A DNA stretch of 38,377 nucleotides, taken from the NCBI GenBank assembly GCA_012513645.1, contig JAAZBU010000021.1, positions 1 through 38,377 of the forward strand, read 5' to 3'. The notes below the pieces were generated by a model. It was not told the DNA's origin. It searched no databases and saw only the letters and a list, made by a program, of their open reading frames with translations. The stretch is from Clostridiales bacterium. Its GTDB lineage: Bacteria > Bacillota > Clostridia > Christensenellales > Aristaeellaceae. Positions 10,244 through 20,807 of the stretch are shown in pieces. How positions within the stretch are numbered: the stretch's first letter is position 1; each line of letters begins with the position of its first letter. The position numbers were made by a program, and so were the translations under genes.

Positions 10244-11620
10244 TCACGGTTGTGCAAGAAAACTATGCTGCATCAGGGCCATGGCCGCCTGCGGGTGCTT
10301 GCGGCTGAGTACGCCCAGCGAGGCCATGATGTAGTGATGGTCGGTAAGCAGTTCTGCCTCCCCCGGCTTGGGGTAGAGCCACTTGCGCTGGGCGTTCATA
10401 TCGCGCAGCTGCGCCATGACGCGCTCCCTGCCGGGCAGGCGGGTCAGCGCGCCGCCGGTGGCGATGAGGTATTGAAGCTGCGTCAGGTCCTTGCCCTCGG
10501 CGATCTGCTGGCGGCCGCCCGGCAAAAATACGCTGCGGATGCTGCCCGCGTGCCGCCGCAGCGCCGTCAGCCCGGCCTCCAGCGCCAGGCGCTCGGCCAG
10601 CGCCTCCTGCTCGGGGGTGCGGGGGATGGGCTGCCAATCGGCCATCAGTGCCCGGGTGTCCGTGCCCAGCTCCCGGTCCAGCCGGTCCGTGCCCAGGGCA
10701 TCCAGCAGGTGAGCGGCGTTGATATACAGGCCCAGGTCGCCCTCCACGGTGCGCAGGTACAGGGGCTCGGGCCTGGTCTGTATGCGGGCGATCTCCTCGG
10801 ATTCCTCGCAGGCGCTGTGCACGTCGGTGGTGGCGCCGCCGATGTCGATGACGGCCAGGTTGCCCAGGCTGCCGTGCATCAGGCGCGCCATCTCCATCAC
10901 CGCGCCCGGGGTGGGCATCAGCGGCTGGGTCACCATATCGTACACATGGCGCATGCCCGGCGCCTTGACGATGTGGCGCTCAAACAGCATCTGGATGTGG
11001 CGGCGGGCGGGCTCGATGTTCAGGTCATCCAGCCGGGGGTAGACATTGTCGCAGATGGCAATCTCAAGCCCCGCTTGTTCAAACAGCGCGCGCACCTCGC
11101 CTTGGTTTTGCACGTTGCCGGCGTACAGCGTGGGGATGTCCTGCATGCCCAGCGCGGCAATGGCCCGGGCGTTATATAGCGCGGTGTCCCGCTCGCCATA
11201 GTCGGTGCCGCCGGCCAGCAGGATGAGGTTAGGATGCAGTTCACGCAGGGCCTCAAGGTCGCTCTCGCGCAGCATGCCCGCCGTCACCTGGCGCACCACG
11301 GCCCCCGCGCCCAGCGCGGCCGCCTGGGCCGCGCGCACGGTCATGTCGTACACCAGGCCGTGCACGCTCATCTTGAGGCCGCCTGCGGCCGAGCTGGTGG
11401 CGAACAGGTCGGTGTATTGCAGCTCCTGCGCGCCCAAAGCGGCCTTCAGGTCGTCAATGGCGGCCTGAAGGCCCAGGCGCACATCGCCCTGGGCCACGCT
11501 GGTGGCGGCGCTTCCCTGGCCGATGAAGCGGGGGCTGTCCCCGTGCAGGCCGTCAAAGGCGTTAACCAGCGTGGTTGTGGAGCCGATTTCGGCCACCAGG
11601 GCATCGATGCGCAGCGTCAC
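10244..11620 (-). CDS. GlmL/MutL-like ornithine-degradation protein (ASKHA ATPase-like)
   Basis: VAEIGSTTTLVNAFDGL, NLAVIDIGGATTDVHS, LLAGGTDYGE; position between oraE and orr. Confidence 0.88.
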   Translation of the reverse strand: MTLRIDALVAEIGSTTTLVNAFDGLHGDSPRFIGQGSAATSVAQGDVRLGLQAAIDDLKAALGAQELQYTDLFATSSAAGGLKMSVHGLVYDMTVRAAQAAALGAGAVVRQVTAGMLRESDLEALRELHPNLILLAGGTDYGERDTALYNARAIAALGMQDIPTLYAGNVQNQGEVRALFEQAGLEIAICDNVYPRLDDLNIEPARRHIQMLFERHIVKAPGMRHVYDMVTQPLMPTPGAVMEMARLMHGSLGNLAVIDIGGATTDVHSACEESEEIARIQTRPEPLYLRTVEGDLGLYINAAHLLDALGTDRLDRELGTDTRALMADWQPIPRTPEQEALAERLALEAGLTALRRHAGSIRSVFLPGGRQQIAEGKDLTQLQYLIATGGALTRLPGRERVMAQLRDMNAQRKWLYPKPGEAELLTDHHYIMASLGVLSRKHPQAAMALMQHSFLAQP

Positions 11621-13833
11621 TGCTGCCGGGCCCGGCGCTTTTTAACCAGCGCGGTGGCGACATGGATGCCCTTGCTGCCGCGGCCAAAGCCCTCGTCGGC
11701 CCCGGCCTCGCGCGCCAGTTCAGGCGTCACCTGTGTGCCGCCGGCCAGGAAAATCACCCGGTCGCGCACGCCCATCTCCCGCGCCAGGCGGTCGATGAGG
11801 GCGATGTTTTTGTAGTGGATGTTGTCGTGGCTGATGATGGTGCTAGCCAGAATGCCGTCGGCATTCAGCTCGATGGCCGCGCCCACCAACTTTTCGGGCG
11901 GCACGCTGGTGCCCAGGTAGTGCACCTCTATGCCGTACTTCTCGATGCCGCCGTGCTTGATGTCGATGATCTCGCGCAGGCCGACGGAGTGCTCGTCGTT
12001 GCCCACGGTGCCGGCCACCACGCGCAGGGGCCGCTGCTCGATATCCTGGCGCAGCTCATCCTCGCTCAGGGTGTCGGGCGGCTTGGGCACCACCAGCTCG
12101 TTCACGTTGAGGGCAAAGGGCACATGCCCCTTCATCTCGATGCGCGTGCCTTCATGCGGGTGCATGACCTCGCGGGAGATCACCTCGCAATCCGTCAGCC
12201 CCATGCGCCGGCCGGTCTCCAGCGCCGCGGCCTCGGCCAGGGGGGCCTCCACCGGGAAAAACAGGTTGAGGTGCACCAGCCCATCGGCCAGCCACTCCAT
12301 CTCGGGCTTCAATTGCCCGGCGCCCGGCTGGCGGAAGGCCTCGTTCTCGGCCATGCGCACGTGCACATTGTCCTCCTCGTCCAGCTCGTCGATGAACTGG
12401 ATGAGCTCGGGCCTTTCCAGCGTGCAGCCGCCGATGAGGCTGGCCGGGTCCTCCTGGGCGGCTTCATCGTACTGGGCCACGTTGTTGTAGCCGAAGTGGG
12501 CGGTGACAGGCGCCATGTAATCGGCAGCGCGCTTGATCACCGTGCCGGCGCCGATGCCGCCGTCAGCGCGGCGCACAATGCCGTCGCCGTTGCGCTCGGG
12601 GTACAGCCCGCTGTCTACAAAGAAGCCGGCCTCCACCGCGGCGAAGTAGCCGCCGGCGGCCAGCATGTCCTCCAGAAACAGCACCGCGCGCTCCTTGAGC
12701 TCGCGCGCCTTGTCGCGCAGGTAGCCCTCGTCCTTGAGGCCCACCATGTCCATCAGGCCGTCCAGGCCCACATAGGTCTGCTTGGCGGTGTCGCAGGCTT
12801 CAATATTATAGATGTGCCAGGGCACGTTGCGCCCCTCGTCGGGGGTGATGGTGCTCTGGATGTCGGCGCTGGTCAGCTTTGAGATCAGCATGTTGAGCAC
12901 ATGGGTCACCGTGGCCTCGCGGGTGGAGGACTCGATGTACTTGGTGTTCATCTGCGCGCGCATGCGAAAGCCGGGGAACAGTTCGCGCAGCGCCACGGCG
13001 TAGGGCAGATCGGTGTGTACGCAGGGGGCGGGAGTGGCGGTGGGCGGCACGGTGCTCAAACAGATGAGGTCGCGCGGCACGCCGCACCCCAGGGAGAATT
13101 GGGCGTTGATGGCGTGCTGCACCATGAGCTCGGGCATCACCTTCCAGGCGTCGCGCGCGGTGGCGTTGGCGTTGTGCGCGCCGTCTATCTGGGCCATCTG
13201 GCTCCAGGCGATCAGGCGCTTGGATTCGCAGGCGTCCACAAAGCTGCGCACCATGTTGATGTTGCGGTAGATGACGTTGTACTGCGGGTCCTGATGGCAG
13301 CCGTTGACGCCCTCCTCGGCGAACATCACGGCGATGTCGGGCCCGGCCACGCCGGATACATAGCTGTGGTAGTTGATGGGGCGGCCCACCTCGTCCTCGA
13401 TGAGGTCCAGCGCCTTGCGCTGGGCGCGCACCTGCTTGCGGCTGATGGCTACGCCGCCGATGCCCTGGGGCGTGCCCTCGATCAGGCCGTCGATGTGGCT
13501 CTGCCCGGCGGTGCGGATGACCATGATGTGGTCGGCCCCGTGGTGGGCGGCCATACGCATGCGGCGGATATCATCCTCAAACCGGCCCGAGGCGATCTCG
13601 GTGGTGATGACCGGCAGGGGCTGGGGGTCGATGTTTTCAAAGTTGTGCGCGGGCGGCAGGGGCACCGAGGCCTTTAAAGGCTGGGAGCAATCCTGATAGG
13701 TGAAGGGGCCCATTTTGAGGCCGGGCACGGGCTTGCGCCAGGTCCAGCCGCGGCGGCGGGGGCGGTACTGATCCAGGTCCTTCAAAATCTCGCGGATGTC
13801 GATCTGCTGATCGGGCTTTAACTGATAGCTCAT
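11617..13833 (-). CDS. oraE: D-ornithine 4,5-aminomutase, large (E/beta) subunit, adenosylcobalamin- and PLP-dependent
   Basis: 738 aa; DIREILKDLDQYRPRRRGWTWRKP...; cobalamin-binding DxHxxG motif as DEHSVG; paired with oraS. Confidence 0.93.
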   Translation of the reverse strand: MSYQLKPDQQIDIREILKDLDQYRPRRRGWTWRKPVPGLKMGPFTYQDCSQPLKASVPLPPAHNFENIDPQPLPVITTEIASGRFEDDIRRMRMAAHHGADHIMVIRTAGQSHIDGLIEGTPQGIGGVAISRKQVRAQRKALDLIEDEVGRPINYHSYVSGVAGPDIAVMFAEEGVNGCHQDPQYNVIYRNINMVRSFVDACESKRLIAWSQMAQIDGAHNANATARDAWKVMPELMVQHAINAQFSLGCGVPRDLICLSTVPPTATPAPCVHTDLPYAVALRELFPGFRMRAQMNTKYIESSTREATVTHVLNMLISKLTSADIQSTITPDEGRNVPWHIYNIEACDTAKQTYVGLDGLMDMVGLKDEGYLRDKARELKERAVLFLEDMLAAGGYFAAVEAGFFVDSGLYPERNGDGIVRRADGGIGAGTVIKRAADYMAPVTAHFGYNNVAQYDEAAQEDPASLIGGCTLERPELIQFIDELDEEDNVHVRMAENEAFRQPGAGQLKPEMEWLADGLVHLNLFFPVEAPLAEAAALETGRRMGLTDCEVISREVMHPHEGTRIEMKGHVPFALNVNELVVPKPPDTLSEDELRQDIEQRPLRVVAGTVGNDEHSVGLREIIDIKHGGIEKYGIEVHYLGTSVPPEKLVGAAIELNADGILASTIISHDNIHYKNIALIDRLAREMGVRDRVIFLAGGTQVTPELAREAGADEGFGRGSKGIHVATALVKKRRARQQ

Positions 13834-14195
13834 TTTGCCCCCTCCTGAAAGAGTGCGGCCGCCTCGTCCAGCAGCTCGCCCCGGCTGAGCGCCAGGCCGG
13901 CTTCCCGCAGGGGCAGCCCGCGCTCGCGGCTCAACTTGTACACCACATGGCCCGCGCCGTGGCTGAGCAGCCCGCGGTCCAGGCAGGCGTCGGCAATGGC
14001 CTTGGCCTCCAGCGAGTTAAAGCCCATGCGCAGCAGCACGCTGCGCTCGATGGCCGGGCTGGTGTTTTCGCGGCCGGCCTGCAACAGCGGGTCGGTCAGC
14101 TGCTCCACCAGACTCCAGAAGCGCTGGTGCAGCTGCTCGTCGCTCAGGCCCTTCAAATGCGCGCCGCGCTGGGCGTAGTCGTCCGTGCGTTTCAT
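13830..14195 (-). CDS. oraS: D-ornithine 4,5-aminomutase, small (S/alpha) subunit
   Basis: 121 aa, RTDDYAQRGAHLKGLSDEQLHQRFWSLVEQLTDPLL; directly upstream of oraE with ATGA overlap. Confidence 0.9.
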   Translation of the reverse strand: MKRTDDYAQRGAHLKGLSDEQLHQRFWSLVEQLTDPLLQAGRENTSPAIERSVLLRMGFNSLEAKAIADACLDRGLLSHGAGHVVYKLSRERGLPLREAGLALSRGELLDEAAALFQEGAK

Positions 14196-15592
14196 GGCTC
14201 CTCCTCACAAGCGGCGCGTACAAAGGCTTGGTCCGCGCGCGTTTCATCCATCAGAAAGGCGATATCCTCCGGCCGCACCGGGCCCGGGAAGTGCTGGCGG
14301 GCGTTGCGGATCAGCGAGCGGCGCATCTGCCCAAGGTCGGCCGGCTGTGCTTCAATCAGCTCGGGCGACTGGGGCAGCACAATGCTTTGGCCGGGCGCCT
14401 CATCGCGGGGGTTGCCAAAGCGGATGTCGATGCCCCGGCTGCGGGCGAAGGCCAGTTGGGCGTTGTGGTGCTTGCCCGCGCCGGTGTACTCGGTCTCCTG
14501 CACCACGATGCATTGTTCGCTTGGCATCTGATGCGCCAGGCTGAAGGCGGCCGCCAGGCTGGTGTTGCCGGCGGGGCCGCGCTCCATGCCCTCCAGGCGG
14601 GACAGCGCCTCCGTCATGAAGAATACCTCGCCCTGGGACACCGTGTGGTAGCTATGCAGGTAGCGCAGCGGGCGGCCCGCGCTGCGCGGCACATCCGAGC
14701 GGTCGGGCCAGGTGCTGAACGGCATGCCGAAGCCCGTGTGCCCGGTGGTGAAGCTCTTGCGGTTGAACTGGCCGTCGCTGGCCATGTGCAGCCCATGTAG
14801 GCTGACGCTGGCCGCAGCTACCGGGGTATCACAGTTTTCCTTCAGCAGGCCGCGGGCGGTGCCGGTCAGGTTGCCGCCGCCGGCGTTGGTGGCGATCACC
14901 AGGTCGGGGTCGCGCCCCTCCCGCGCGCGGAACTGGCGGGCGATCTCCGCGCCCAAGGTTTCGATGCCCAGAATGGCATAGGGCGTGTACAGCGAGGCGT
15001 TGAAGTAGCCCGTGTCCTCCAGCAGCCGCAGGAAGACGTAGAACAGCTCCGGCCCTACCGTCAGCTGCAATACCTCGGCGCCAAAGGCCTCGCACTTGCG
15101 GGCCTTTTCCACAATTTCGGGCTGGCCCACGCCCTGGGAGTCAAAGCACTCCTGCACCACGATGCACCTGAGGCCGGCCTTGGCCGCGCAGCTGGCCACC
15201 GCAGCACCATAGTTGCCGCTGGTGGCGGTGACCACGCCCTTGTAGCCCATGCGGCGGGCCATCTCCACGCTGACGGCGGCACGCCGCGCCTTGAAGCTGC
15301 CTGAGGGGTTGCTGGCCTCATCCTTGACGAAGATGCGGGCGCCCATGCCGGGCGCGGCACAGGAGCCGGCCAGGGCGGTGATGTTTTTGAGCTCCACCAG
15401 CGGCGTGTTGCCGATGGCGTAGTCCCGCTGGATGGCTTCGATCTCCTGCAGGCTAAGGCCGGGGGCGGCCATCATGCCCTCGTAGTCAAAGGCGATGCCG
15501 CCCGATTCAAACCGGCTGTAATCCATGCCCACGGCGGCCTTCATGATCTCGGGCCGGCGGGCCATGACGGCCTGGTAGCTGTTGTCACGCAT
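14192..15592 (-). CDS. ortB: 2-amino-4-oxopentanoate thiolase subunit OrtB (PLP fold)
   Basis: MRDNSYQAVMARRPEIMKAAVGMDYSRFE..., FVKDEASNPSGSFKARRAAVSV PLP-lysine motif. Confidence 0.92.
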   Translation of the reverse strand: MRDNSYQAVMARRPEIMKAAVGMDYSRFESGGIAFDYEGMMAAPGLSLQEIEAIQRDYAIGNTPLVELKNITALAGSCAAPGMGARIFVKDEASNPSGSFKARRAAVSVEMARRMGYKGVVTATSGNYGAAVASCAAKAGLRCIVVQECFDSQGVGQPEIVEKARKCEAFGAEVLQLTVGPELFYVFLRLLEDTGYFNASLYTPYAILGIETLGAEIARQFRAREGRDPDLVIATNAGGGNLTGTARGLLKENCDTPVAAASVSLHGLHMASDGQFNRKSFTTGHTGFGMPFSTWPDRSDVPRSAGRPLRYLHSYHTVSQGEVFFMTEALSRLEGMERGPAGNTSLAAAFSLAHQMPSEQCIVVQETEYTGAGKHHNAQLAFARSRGIDIRFGNPRDEAPGQSIVLPQSPELIEAQPADLGQMRRSLIRNARQHFPGPVRPEDIAFLMDETRADQAFVRAACEEEP

Positions 15593-15890
15593 GATGGTCA
15601 CCTCCGTACAGGCGGTCCCACACCATATTGGCCACCTGACGCAGCTCGGGCACATTGTCGCCAAAGCTGTGGGAGTAGCTGAGCCCATCTTCGATCAGCG
15701 TGCCCTGGGCCAGGCGGCCTGCGGCGGTGCGCACGGTGACGGTGTCGCCTATCTGGGCATCCTGGGTCAGGTAGCCCTTGACCCACATCTCCAGCGGCAC
15801 CCGGGCCGTATCCTCGGGCACCTGGGGGGCGCGCTGCCCGGGGGCGAGCGCTACGCTGTGGATGCGCACCCAGTCTCCCTGCTTATACAT
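15585..15890 (-). CDS. ortA: 2-amino-4-oxopentanoate thiolase subunit OrtA
   Basis: MYKQGDWVRIHSVALAPGQRAPQVPEDTARVPLEMWVKGYLTQDAQIGDTVTVRT; upstream of ortB. Confidence 0.9.
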   Translation of the reverse strand: MYKQGDWVRIHSVALAPGQRAPQVPEDTARVPLEMWVKGYLTQDAQIGDTVTVRTAAGRLAQGTLIEDGLSYSHSFGDNVPELRQVANMVWDRLYGGDHHA

Positions 15891-16944
15891 CTGTTGTATC
15901 CCTCCCAAAGGCGATGGCGCGGTAGTCGCCCATCACGCATCGCGGCACGGGCATGTCCAGCATGGTTTTGAGGCCGGGAGCGGCCGCCACTACAAAGGGC
16001 AGCATGTTGCACGCCATGGCGATGGTGCCCAGGCCGCCGTCCACCTCGGGCTTGATGGCCATGCTGACGGGCGGCGTGCCGGTCAGGGTGACGTAGTCGC
16101 CCGTATCCACGCCGGCCAACTGCGGCTCGATCTGCTGGGGGTGCAGCAGGCTGATCTTTTCCTCGCCCTGCACAGTCGCCTGGGCGGTCATGTTGACGCC
16201 GGCGATGTGGCCCTTGGGCGCGAAGCCGTGGGGGCTTTTGCGGTCCACCTGGGTGACGATGGGCAGCATCTGCTGCTCAAACCCATCGTAGCGGATGCCC
16301 AGCGCGTCGCCGATCATGGCGGCCGACTCGGCAAAGCCCACATGCCCGGCCAGCGAGCCATCCTGCACGCCGCGGTCAAAGTCTTCCACCGTGATGCCGA
16401 TGCCCTGCTCCACCATGACGGCCTGGCCAAAGGGGCTGAGGCTGTTGATGCGCTCGCAGCGCACGTGCTCCACCCGCGTCATGCAGCCGGAGAGGAACAC
16501 GGCCAGCAGGTCCATCATCATGCCGGGGTTGATGCCCGTGCCCAGGATGCTGACGCCGTTTTCGCGCGCGGCGCGGTCCATCTGCTGCGCCATCTCGGGG
16601 GACTGGGCCTCTGGCCAGGCCATCTCCTCGGCGATGGTCAGCACGTTGACACCCGCCTGCACCACCTGCATGACCTTGGGGAATACCTCCTTGACAAAGG
16701 AGTTGGTGGCAATGACGCAGATGTCCGGCTTTTTAGAAAGCAGGGCAGCGATATCGCCCGTGACCGTTGCATCGGGCCGGGTACCCCGGGGGGTACCCAG
16801 CAGGGCATAGATGCTCTTGCCCTGCTTATCGGGGTGGGTGTCACACACGCCGATGATGTCTACGCCCTGCCGCCCCAGCAGCACGCGGGCGATGCCCGAG
16901 CCCATGGCCCCAAAGCCCCACAGGGCAACCTGTACGTTGCGCAT
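15883..16944 (-). CDS. ord: 2,4-diaminopentanoate dehydrogenase
   Basis: MRNVQVALWGFGAMGSGIARVLLGRQGVDIIGVCD Rossmann start; first gene of the ort/ora operon. Confidence 0.92.
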   Translation of the reverse strand: MRNVQVALWGFGAMGSGIARVLLGRQGVDIIGVCDTHPDKQGKSIYALLGTPRGTRPDATVTGDIAALLSKKPDICVIATNSFVKEVFPKVMQVVQAGVNVLTIAEEMAWPEAQSPEMAQQMDRAARENGVSILGTGINPGMMMDLLAVFLSGCMTRVEHVRCERINSLSPFGQAVMVEQGIGITVEDFDRGVQDGSLAGHVGFAESAAMIGDALGIRYDGFEQQMLPIVTQVDRKSPHGFAPKGHIAGVNMTAQATVQGEEKISLLHPQQIEPQLAGVDTGDYVTLTGTPPVSMAIKPEVDGGLGTIAMACNMLPFVVAAAPGLKTMLDMPVPRCVMGDYRAIAFGRDTTDV

Positions 16945-17041
16945 TCTTCTCTCCTTCTTTGCTGCCGGCGCGCAGCGAATCATGGCCCGCTGTCGCCCCT
17001 GCGATGTCGGAATCTTGCAGATATGGGGGAATACCGTTATG

Positions 17042-17070
17042 ATTTTATCATACTATTGCGCCGATGTATA
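17042..17070 (-). promoter_or_regulatory. Predicted ord operon promoter (-35 TATACA, 17-bp spacer, -10 TAAAAT)
   Basis: Minus-strand TATACA (17070-17065), 17 nt, TAAAAT (17047-17042); the -35 lies in the outer half-site of the operator. Confidence 0.55.
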
Positions 17071-17101
17071 GACGGGATGCATATACAGACCGCATATACA
17101 T
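17064..17101. promoter_or_regulatory. Candidate operator between ord and rocB-like gene (four ATGTATA/TATACAT-type half-sites)
   Basis: ATGTATAGACGGGATGCATATACAGACCGCATATACAT; same half-site order as the arcA palindrome, with 13- instead of 14-bp spacing. Confidence 0.6.
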
Positions 17102-17211
17102 ATTGGGAGACGAAACGGGCTGAAACCCCCATTGTGCTTGTGATTCAGGCGTGTTACATTGCGGTCAGGCGAACAAAACGAATAATTTCGGGCAACCACG
17201 AGGAGGATGGC

Positions 17212-18852
17212 ATGGGGCATCACAGGGAGAAGCGCATTGAGCAGATCATGGCGGACTATGTAGGCGCGGCCACCCACACGGCGACAGAGCTGGAGAACAA
17301 CAACCGGGCGTTCTTCGAGCGCTACTTTGCGTCGGTGGATTACCTCAGGCAGCATCCGCAGCTGTGCGGGTTTTACCCCATTGCGGGCGACGCGCTTGGA
17401 CGCTGCGTGCCATGGGCGCTGCGCAAGGGGCAGGGTGCACAGACGGTGGTGCTTATCCACCACTCGGACACCGTGGATACCGACGATTACGGCGCGTTAA
17501 AGCAATGGGCCTACAGCCCGTACGAGCTGACGCAGCGCTATCACAATGGTGAGGCCGATCTGGATGCCGCCAGTGCCGATGACCTGCACAGCGGAGAGTG
17601 GCTGTTTGGCCGCGGCGTGGCGGACATGAAGGGCGGCGCCGCCATCCACATGGCGCTGTTTGAGGAATACGCCGGGGAGGCGGATTTTTCGGGCAACGTG
17701 CTGCTGCTGGGCCTGCCCGATGAGGAGAACCTGTCCGCCGGCATGCGCAGCGCCGTGCACCTGCTGGGCGAACTCAAGGAAAAGCACGGCCTGCAATACA
17801 GCCTGATGCTGAACATCGAATCTCAGGAGCGCGATGAGCCGAACGACATGCGGGTGTACGACGGCTCGGTGGGCAAGCTGATGCCCATCTGCTATGTGCG
17901 CGGCAAGCTGGCGCATGTGGGGCAGGTGTTCAGCGGGCTCAACCCCATCCATATCCTGTCCGAGATTGTGACGGCCACCGAGCTGTGCCCCGACTTTATC
18001 GAGCAGGTCGGCAACACCGAGGTGCCGCCGCCCGCCTGGCTGTACTTGAAGGACCGCAAGGAGGTATACGATGTATCCCTGCCGCTGGCCGCCGCCGGGT
18101 ACATGAGCGTGCTGACGCTCAAGAGCTCCGCGCGCGAAGTGATGGCGCGCGTGCACGATTTGGCGGCAGGCGCCTTTGAGCGCGTCATCGCGCGCGCCAA
18201 CCGCGGCTACCGCGTCTATATGCAGGACGAGCAGGCGACCTTGCCCTGGAAGGTCAATGTGCAGACATACGATCAGGTGTATCAGCAGGCGCTGCGGGAC
18301 GCCGGGGACGCCCTGCCGGAGGCCCTGGCGGATTATCAGGCCATTGCCAAGGAGCAGATTGCCCGGGGCACGCTCAGCATGGCGGAGGCCGCCTTCCAGA
18401 TGATCGAGCGCACGGTGGCCCACCTCAAAAGTGCGGAGCCGCTGGTGGTGCTGGCCATGTCGCCGCCCTACTATCCGCATGTCCACAACAGCATGCTGCC
18501 AGACGGCGCGCCGCAGATCACCGGGCTGCTCGAGTACCTGGCGCAGTATACCGGGGAAAAGCTGAATAGCAGCTTCCATGTCAAGAGCTTTTACACCGGC
18601 ATATCCGACCTCAGCTACGCGCTGTATGAGCGCAATCTGGAAAACGCGGACTACATCCGCGCCAACATGCTGCTGTGGGGCGAAATCTACGACATCCCGC
18701 TGGATGAAATCCGGGATCTGTCCATCCCGGTGCTCAACATCGGCCCCTGGGGCAAGGATTTGCACAAGTATACAGAGCGCGTGCACATGAAGGATTTGCT
18801 GGAGCGCGTGCCTGCGCTGGTGGACGCGGCCATTAGGCATTTGCTACAGTAG
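17212..18852 (+). CDS. rocB: M20 family metallopeptidase, RocB-like (arginine utilization protein family)
   Basis: LIHHSDTVDTDDYGALK, GRGVADMKGGAAIHMALFEEYA, LLGLPDEENLSAGMRSAV; RBS gaggagg upstream. Confidence 0.85.
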   Translation: MGHHREKRIEQIMADYVGAATHTATELENNNRAFFERYFASVDYLRQHPQLCGFYPIAGDALGRCVPWALRKGQGAQTVVLIHHSDTVDTDDYGALKQWAYSPYELTQRYHNGEADLDAASADDLHSGEWLFGRGVADMKGGAAIHMALFEEYAGEADFSGNVLLLGLPDEENLSAGMRSAVHLLGELKEKHGLQYSLMLNIESQERDEPNDMRVYDGSVGKLMPICYVRGKLAHVGQVFSGLNPIHILSEIVTATELCPDFIEQVGNTEVPPPAWLYLKDRKEVYDVSLPLAAAGYMSVLTLKSSAREVMARVHDLAAGAFERVIARANRGYRVYMQDEQATLPWKVNVQTYDQVYQQALRDAGDALPEALADYQAIAKEQIARGTLSMAEAAFQMIERTVAHLKSAEPLVVLAMSPPYYPHVHNSMLPDGAPQITGLLEYLAQYTGEKLNSSFHVKSFYTGISDLSYALYERNLENADYIRANMLLWGEIYDIPLDEIRDLSIPVLNIGPWGKDLHKYTERVHMKDLLERVPALVDAAIRHLLQ

Positions 18853-18876
18853 TTATTGATCAATCAACAAAACACA

Positions 18877-18911
18877 CCCCCGGCAGGCGCAGCGGCCTTC
18901 CGGGGGTTTTT
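18877..18911. terminator. Rho-independent terminator between convergent rocB-like gene and arcA
   Basis: CCCCCGG-c-AGGC-gcagcg-GCCT-t-CCGGGGG-TTTTT. Confidence 0.85.
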
Positions 18912-18932
18912 GGTGGTAGATAGGTTTTAACC

Positions 18933-20150
18933 CTATGCCCTCATCAGCGGCATGCTCATGCATCGGGGGCCGCCGCGCCCGCGCCCCAGCTCGCTGCCGG
19001 GCACCTCGATGGTTTCGATGCCGTGGTCGCGCAGGATGGCGTTGGTGATGGTGTTGCGGTCGTAGACGATGACCTTGCCCGGTGCCACGCACAGGGTGTT
19101 GCTGCCGTCGTTCCACTGCTCGCGCTGGGAGGCAATGCTGTCCATGCCGCCGCAGCGGATGAGGGTGACCGGGCCGCCGCCGATGTTGCGCTGGAGGATC
19201 CGGTCAAAGGGGCCGGTCTGCTCCTGCACCTGCACGGTGCCCTTGGCCCCGGGCGTCAGCCGCCAGGCGCGCAGCGTGGGCAGAATGCCCGGGTGCACGG
19301 TGAAGGCATCGCGGTCCACCTGGGTGAACACTGTATCCAGGTGCATATAGGCGCGGATGTTGGGGATGTCGATAGCCAGCACCGCCTTGAAGCCGCTTTG
19401 CTCGTCGGCGAACAGCCTTTGCGCCAGCAGCTCCACGGCCTCGGGCGTGGTGCGCTGGGACAGCCCGGCCGTCAGCAGCCCGTTATCCAGGCACAGCAGG
19501 TCGCCGCCCTCGATGCTGAAGGGCACATCCGGGTCGTAGTACATGGGCACGCGGCCCACATAATCCAGATGATAGTTGAGGATGTAGTTGCCGTAGATGG
19601 TCTCCCGCTGGCGGGAGGGGGCATGCATGCGGCTGATGGCGGCGCCCGAGCCCAAAATAGCAAAGGGATCGCGCGTGAAGTACAGGTTGGGGATCGGGTC
19701 CAGTATAAAGCGCGGCTCGTCGCTGAAGGCGTTGGCCAGCGGGTGGTGGGCGGGGCGCAGCAGCTCCCGGTCGGTCACGCCGGACATGGTTTTGAGCACC
19801 AGGTCCTTCTCGTCCGGGATGTCCATCAGCAGGGCAAACAGCTCCTTGCGGTAGTAGCGGCCCACATCGCCCGAGCGATCAATGAACTCCGTGATAAACT
19901 GCCTGCGCATATCCTCCGACGGGCGCAGGGTATCGGCTACCCGGTCGGACAGGTAGACGACTTCCGCGCCATATCGGCGCAGGGTGTCGGCAAAGGCATC
20001 ATGCTCCCGCTGGGCGCCTGACAGGTAGGGGATGTCATCAAACAGCATGCGGGACAGGTGCCCGGGCGTCAGCTGTTCAAGCTCGGTGCCGGGGCGATGC
20101 AGCAGAACCCGGCGCAGCGGGCCGATTTCACTACGGACGGATAGTTTCAT
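18933..20150 (-). CDS. arcA: Arginine deiminase
   Basis: [50 protein letters not shown], catalytic C-terminal Cys in [14 protein letters not shown]. Confidence 0.96.
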
Positions 20151-20188
20151 GAGGGGTCCTCGTTTTCGTTCAATTTTTTCACACATTA

Positions 20189-20217
20189 AGTATAGCATGG
20201 CACCGACAAAATGTATA
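20189..20217 (-). promoter_or_regulatory. Predicted arcA promoter (-35 TATACA, 17-bp spacer, -10 TATACT)
   Basis: Minus-strand TATACA (20217-20212), 17 nt, TATACT (20194-20189). Confidence 0.6.
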
Positions 20218-20252
20218 CGCCAAAATGTATATACATTTTGGCGTATACATTT
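20209..20252. promoter_or_regulatory. 44-bp perfect palindrome, candidate operator of arcA
   Basis: AAATGTATACGCCAAAATGTAT|ATACATTTTGGCGTATACATTT, 22-bp arms, no spacer. Confidence 0.8.
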
Positions 20253-20259
20253 GCATTTG

Positions 20260-20288
20260 TTGAATCCCTTTTACCACTATGTTAAAAT
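20260..20288 (+). promoter_or_regulatory. Predicted promoter of the GNAT/hydrolase/murF/ddl/murC run
   Basis: TTGAAT-N17-TAAAAT. Confidence 0.6.
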
Positions 20289-20324
20289 AGCATGCCGCAA
20301 TATTGCGGCGGCGGGAGGCGTGGG

Positions 20325-20807
20325 TTGCTCAACCTGTTTAAAAGGCGCAGGGCCCTGTATTCGGACGGCGTGATCGAGCTGCATCTGGCCGATGCCGGCC
20401 TGCGCGATGACCATAGCGGCATTGTGGACGGATACACCTTTGACATCCGCCCCGCGGGCAGCAGGCACACCGTGGGCTACATCAGCCTGAGGCTGGGGGA
20501 AAGCCCGGCGCTGTACTACCTGGGCCACATCGGCTACCGCGTGCACGCCAGCCACCGCGGCCAGGGCTACGCGCGGCGCGCGCTTGTGCTGCTGATCCCC
20601 CTGATGCGCCGGGAGGGCCTGCTGCATCCTGTCATCACCACCAATGTGGACAACCTGCCCAGCCGCTACACCTGCCTGAAGGCCGGCTGCGTGCTGGAGC
20701 GCATCACCCCCGTGCCGCCTGCCCACCGCGAGGTGTGCGCAGGGGCGCAGTGGAAGTGCCGCTACATCTTGCCCATCCCGCGGGCAGAGGAAAAGGAGGG
20801 CCCATGA
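20325..20807 (+). CDS. GNAT family N-acetyltransferase (probable TTG start)
   Basis: IGYRVHASHRGQGYARRALVLLIPLMRREGLLHPVITTNVDNLPSRYTCLKAGC; gggagg RBS before TTG at 20325; ATG at 20292 possible but has no RBS. Confidence 0.82.
   Translation: MLNLFKRRRALYSDGVIELHLADAGLRDDHSGIVDGYTFDIRPAGSRHTVGYISLRLGESPALYYLGHIGYRVHASHRGQGYARRALVLLIPLMRREGLLHPVITTNVDNLPSRYTCLKAGCVLERITPVPPAHREVCAGAQWKCRYILPIPRAEEKEGP

Follow-up and report, generated by a model that had tools for sequence, protein, structure and literature searches.

The arginine deiminase gene (arcA) of a Clostridiales bacterium is preceded by a perfect palindrome of 44 bp (20209-20252), which raises the question of what such a sequence does at this promoter. 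The analyzed stretch of DNA, referred to as the window, was 38,377 nucleotides long and came from a 2.0 Mb assembly (78% complete, 175 contigs). The palindrome, reported correctly in both sequence and coordinates in a preliminary description, was the longest perfect one in the window. The runner-up was 18 bp, and the longest found in 20 mononucleotide shuffles of the window were 14-20 bp. Four TGTATA/TATACA half-sites, also recognized earlier, started at 20212, 20226, 20230 and 20244 (relative positions 0, 14, 18 and 32). The reading as a repeat element was rejected, as the 44-mer was present in a single copy in the assembly even with up to three mismatches, and its 14-bp core had no other match at fewer than two mismatches. 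A literature search for TGTATATACA returned little. Based on the sequence comparisons, it was concluded that the palindrome is probably one copy of an operator for a trans-acting oligomeric regulator of arginine and ornithine catabolism. The features of the locus are listed in the Table.

Table. Genes, predicted promoters and predicted operator elements of the arcA-ord region
Feature	Position	Strand	Basis or remark
Ornithine-oxidation genes ord, ortA, ortB, oraS (by position), oraE	11617..16983	-	Profile and orthologue comparison
Predicted ord promoter, TATACA-17-TAAAAT, extended -10; -35 is the operator's outer half-site	17042..17070	-	Promoter scan
Second operator (predicted), TGTATA-N7-TGCATATACA-N7-TATACA	17065..17100		Half-site starts 17065, 17078, 17082, 17095
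M20-family hydrolase gene, divergent from ord	17212..18852	+	PF01546; intergenic region with second operator
arcA, arginine deiminase	18933..20150	-	PF02274, NF002381/TIGR01078
Predicted arcA promoter, TATACA-17-TATACT, extended -10	20189..20217	-	Promoter scan; same layout in orthologues
Palindrome, arcA operator (predicted)	20209..20252		44 bp, exact sequence match
Outer half-site TGTATA (minus strand TATACA, the arcA -35 hexamer)	20212..20217	+	Half-site and promoter scans
Core TGTATATACA, two overlapping inverted half-sites	20226..20235		Half-site scan; kept in G004 and G003
Outer half-site TATACA, distal to arcA	20244..20249	+	Half-site scan
Predicted GNAT promoter, TTGAAT-17-TAAAAT	20260..20288	+	Promoter scan
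GNAT acetyltransferase gene, probable start TTG	20325..20807	+	PF13302; start inferred

A simple promoter scan of the region 16900-20400 found three sigma70-like promoters, those of arcA, ord and GNAT, all with an extended -10 element, when shuffled sequences gave 1.1 on average. One end of the palindrome contained the predicted arcA -35 hexamer, its outermost TATACA standing at a 17-bp spacer from the -10 element, a feature that had been missed before. Since the palindrome was located between two divergent predicted promoters, transcription across it was not expected. The arcA orthologues aligned from the ATG at 20150, hence the longer open reading frame starting at 20198 was considered wrong. 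The GNAT gene probably starts at the TTG at 20325 and not at the ATG at 20292, which would precede the transcript start expected from the predicted promoter. An open reading frame at 17497-18840 on the minus strand was rejected as the gene following arcA, since it only shadows the M20 gene encoded on the opposite strand.

Within the window, TGYATA/TATRCA half-sites clustered nowhere but at the palindrome and at positions 17065-17100. The latter cluster, which was absent from the preliminary description, was situated upstream of ord-ortA-ortB-oraS-oraE and of the divergent M20 hydrolase gene; the ord gene itself probably starts near 16944. The relative starts of its half-sites were 0, 13, 17 and 30. 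The two operators scored 24 and 23.7 for the four-half-site layout, compared with a maximum of 17.8 in 10 block shuffles, the layout having been defined post hoc with the sites already in view. Because this second copy was found at genes of ornithine breakdown, the site was considered most likely to be an on/off switch for the use of arginine in this uncultured clostridial bacterium, of an ordinary kind but not described before.

In the window, the M20-family hydrolase gene occupied the place of arcB between arcA and ord. An M20 gene was also divergent from arcA in the genome G112 (L044/L193), with no arcB in the DNA examined there. Most other arcA loci contained arcB, and the M20 gene was present in none of them. 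Some M20 enzymes hydrolyze carbamoyl groups, and by analogy the M20 hydrolase may act on citrulline.

The conservation of the site was assessed in 20 promoters of three genera, comprising 19 arcA promoters and the ord promoter of the window. The nearest relative, G004, whose arcA was 91% identical, shared 22 of 22 half-site bases with the arcA operator of the window, as against 8 of 16 linker bases; its operator was 73% self-complementary. Thus, the expected conservation of the palindrome at arcA orthologues held for the half-sites and their spacing, but not for the full 44-bp symmetry. The conserved part of the control site is the four short TGTATA-type marks, and the exact symmetry seen in the window looks incidental. 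The window copy possibly arose as a local perfection of a quasi-palindrome by hairpin-templated mutation.

The four-half-site design was also found at arcA of G003 (spacings 14/14), G002 (13/13) and G118 (14/13), the last belonging to another genus. In G001 and in most other members of the genus g21, TATRCA was kept at the -35 position and paired outward (TATRCA-N4-TGYATA). A lone pair, TGYATA-N12-TATTCA, was found in three members of the genus g36; as counted by eye, its end was some 30 bp upstream of the -10 element. The arcA promoters of g21 and g36 were found without an intact core, the pairs being outward or widely spaced. Hence, both the spacing (13 or 14) and the arrangement (inward or outward) varied between genera. 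The distances that recurred among the 20 promoters were 10 for outward pairs, 4 and 17/18 for inward pairs and 13/14 for direct pairs, with counts unmatched in 500 dinucleotide shuffles; these counts are not probabilities, since the promoter regions were related and the layout was defined after the sites had been seen.

We infer protein binding, repression and a ligand of the regulator as follows. Four TGYATA half-sites would be laid out as A-N(7/8)-BC-N(7/8)-D, where B and C make up the 10-bp core and D doubles as the -35 hexamer. In its simplest form, the mechanism would have a dimer of the regulator occupy the core and its neighbors the outer half-sites, effectively forming a tetramer. The bound regulator would cover the -35 element and bar RNA polymerase from arcA and from the ord-ort-ora operon, and arginine, ornithine or a related metabolite or product would free the operator. 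The oligomeric regulator probably acts as a repressor. Repression is favored by the overlap with the -35 element in the window, by a half-site between the -35 and -10 elements in g21, and by sites past the -10 elements of the histidine ammonia-lyase (hutH) and M20 genes. The half-site pair of g36, placed upstream of the -35 element, would suit an activator equally.

Further candidate targets were searched for with two patterns. TATRCAN4TGYATA gave 26 sites in 16 arcA-bearing genomes, 10 of them at arcA, and the reversed control gave 2. TATACAN7-8TATNCA matched in the genome of the window at arcA, ord, histidine ammonia-lyase and a response-regulator gene, the last match falling at the ribosome-binding region and marking a candidate target only. 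The histidine ammonia-lyase gene (contig C28, TIGR01225) is a possible further target, still a candidate only, with an operator-like match just past its -10 element. This match, TGAATATACATTGTGAGTATGCA, was located at 490-512 (G000:C28, L220) just 3' of the -10 element; hutI-like and hutU-like open reading frames lay farther on, and a helix-turn-helix (XRE-type) gene was divergent. The M20 gene of G112 carried TGCATA and TGAATA, 13 bp apart, just past its apparent -10 element and was likewise treated only as a candidate. In two related genomes (G183:C149, L162 and G024:C64, L163), TATGCAN4TGTATA overlapped the predicted -10 element of an M16-type peptidase gene. In G004 (C77, L210, around 1501-1565), an AraC-family regulator gene was preceded at about 50 bp by a TGGATA-N7-TGTATA pair, possibly by chance. 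Several matches of the patterns fell inside coding sequence (three of them in L200, L202 and L204, for example) and were either put down to chance or left undecided.

In keeping with the preliminary description, which had seen no candidate regulator in the window, no transcription factor was found among its annotated genes, the annotation covering part of the gene set. No regulator gene was recognized near arcA in the neighborhoods that were read. The arginine repressor ArgR is a serious candidate, if short of a probable one; it would bind ARG-like half-sites (TGYAT) arranged non-canonically and would control catabolism only. It was encoded in 180 of the 201 family genomes and in 103 of the 105 good ones, and it was found in the genus members G001, G002 and G004. 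A search for ArgR in the 78%-complete assembly of the window found none, and its usual neighbor recN was missing too; in G131 and G026, truncated ArgR ends were present at the edges of contigs. An exclusion of ArgR based on its absence in G183, G131 and others was undone by the recN search and by these truncated ends. The argC gene, sought for a comparison of ARG boxes with arginine-biosynthesis genes, was missing from all 121 family genomes tested. A catabolic role of ArgR is therefore plausible, and, being nearly universal in the family, ArgR must serve some purpose other than the control of that biosynthetic route. ArgR represses arcA in Listeria (PMC5291005), and the ARG boxes of Streptomyces have TGCAT half-sites (PMC4865122). 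The present sites resemble ArgR/AhrC operators in having arcA as a target and in the likeness of TGYAT to the ARG half-sites TGAAT and TGCAT. However, the spacing here was 13/14, 4 and 17/18 and never that of the canonical N4 box. The 18-bp ARG box, TGNAT-N4-ATNCA, was present in 0 of 20 promoters under the half-site pattern used, in line with the earlier remark that the core does not fit standard ARG-box spacing. ArgR was also encoded in many genomes without arcA, the sites here occurred at ornithine-oxidation genes as well, a difference from the ArgR/AhrC operators at arginine deiminase promoters, and a hutH site would be unexpected for ArgR.

A GntR-family repressor of the HutC subfamily as the regulator is rather unlikely. 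The core at 20226-20235 matched the HutC consensus TGTA-N2-TACA, and TGCATATACA at 17078-17087 was one base off. HutC forms oligomers from dimer to hexamer, one strong site has been described with three half-sites, and its footprints overlap sigma70 sites (PMC12977541). The core, the extra half-site and the overlap with a sigma70 element are thus shared with the hut promoters of Pseudomonas, and a related site stood just after the -10 element of histidine ammonia-lyase in the genome of the window. In contrast to the Pseudomonas operators, the main targets here were genes of arginine and ornithine metabolism. The core was not intact in several orthologous promoters, and no GntR gene was recognized beside arcA in the neighborhoods read. 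Of the earlier proposal of a HutC-type operator and a regulator other than ArgR, the match of the core stood, but the preference for HutC type over ArgR was left undecided by the evidence.

An IclR-type tetramer reading one box in two arrangements, proposed by analogy, is improbable. IclR motifs have two box arrangements, some with three alternating boxes (PMC8222616), and here, too, one box was paired both inward and outward. However, the box sequence and spacing differed from the published consensuses when compared by eye. It is extremely improbable that the palindrome acts in RNA, as a transcribed hairpin or as a terminator: a terminator scan named it a stem-loop candidate, but its place is upstream of the two divergent predicted promoters and it is followed by GCATTTGTTG and not by a T tract, the related operators were merely 44-73% self-complementary, and an Rfam search gave no match, all of which agrees with the DNA-level operator suggested at the outset.

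Returning to the proposed operator for a regulator of arginine and ornithine catabolism, a wider version of it was formulated. A regulator other than ArgR, and not described before, would read a 13/14-bp lattice of TGYATA half-sites that includes the -35 hexamer itself, and would couple the catabolism of arginine, ornithine and histidine in the family. The arrangement would have switched between inward and outward among sister genera, with the -35 half-site remaining fixed. This version is possible but doubtful.

As only the half-sites were conserved, a perfect palindrome, however striking, can be the incidentally perfected form of a quasi-palindrome that is functional. The two operators would define a regulon of arginine and ornithine fermentation that is open to testing, in a large clostridial family whose members are mostly uncultured and which keeps ArgR, with argC found in 0 of the 121 genomes tested.
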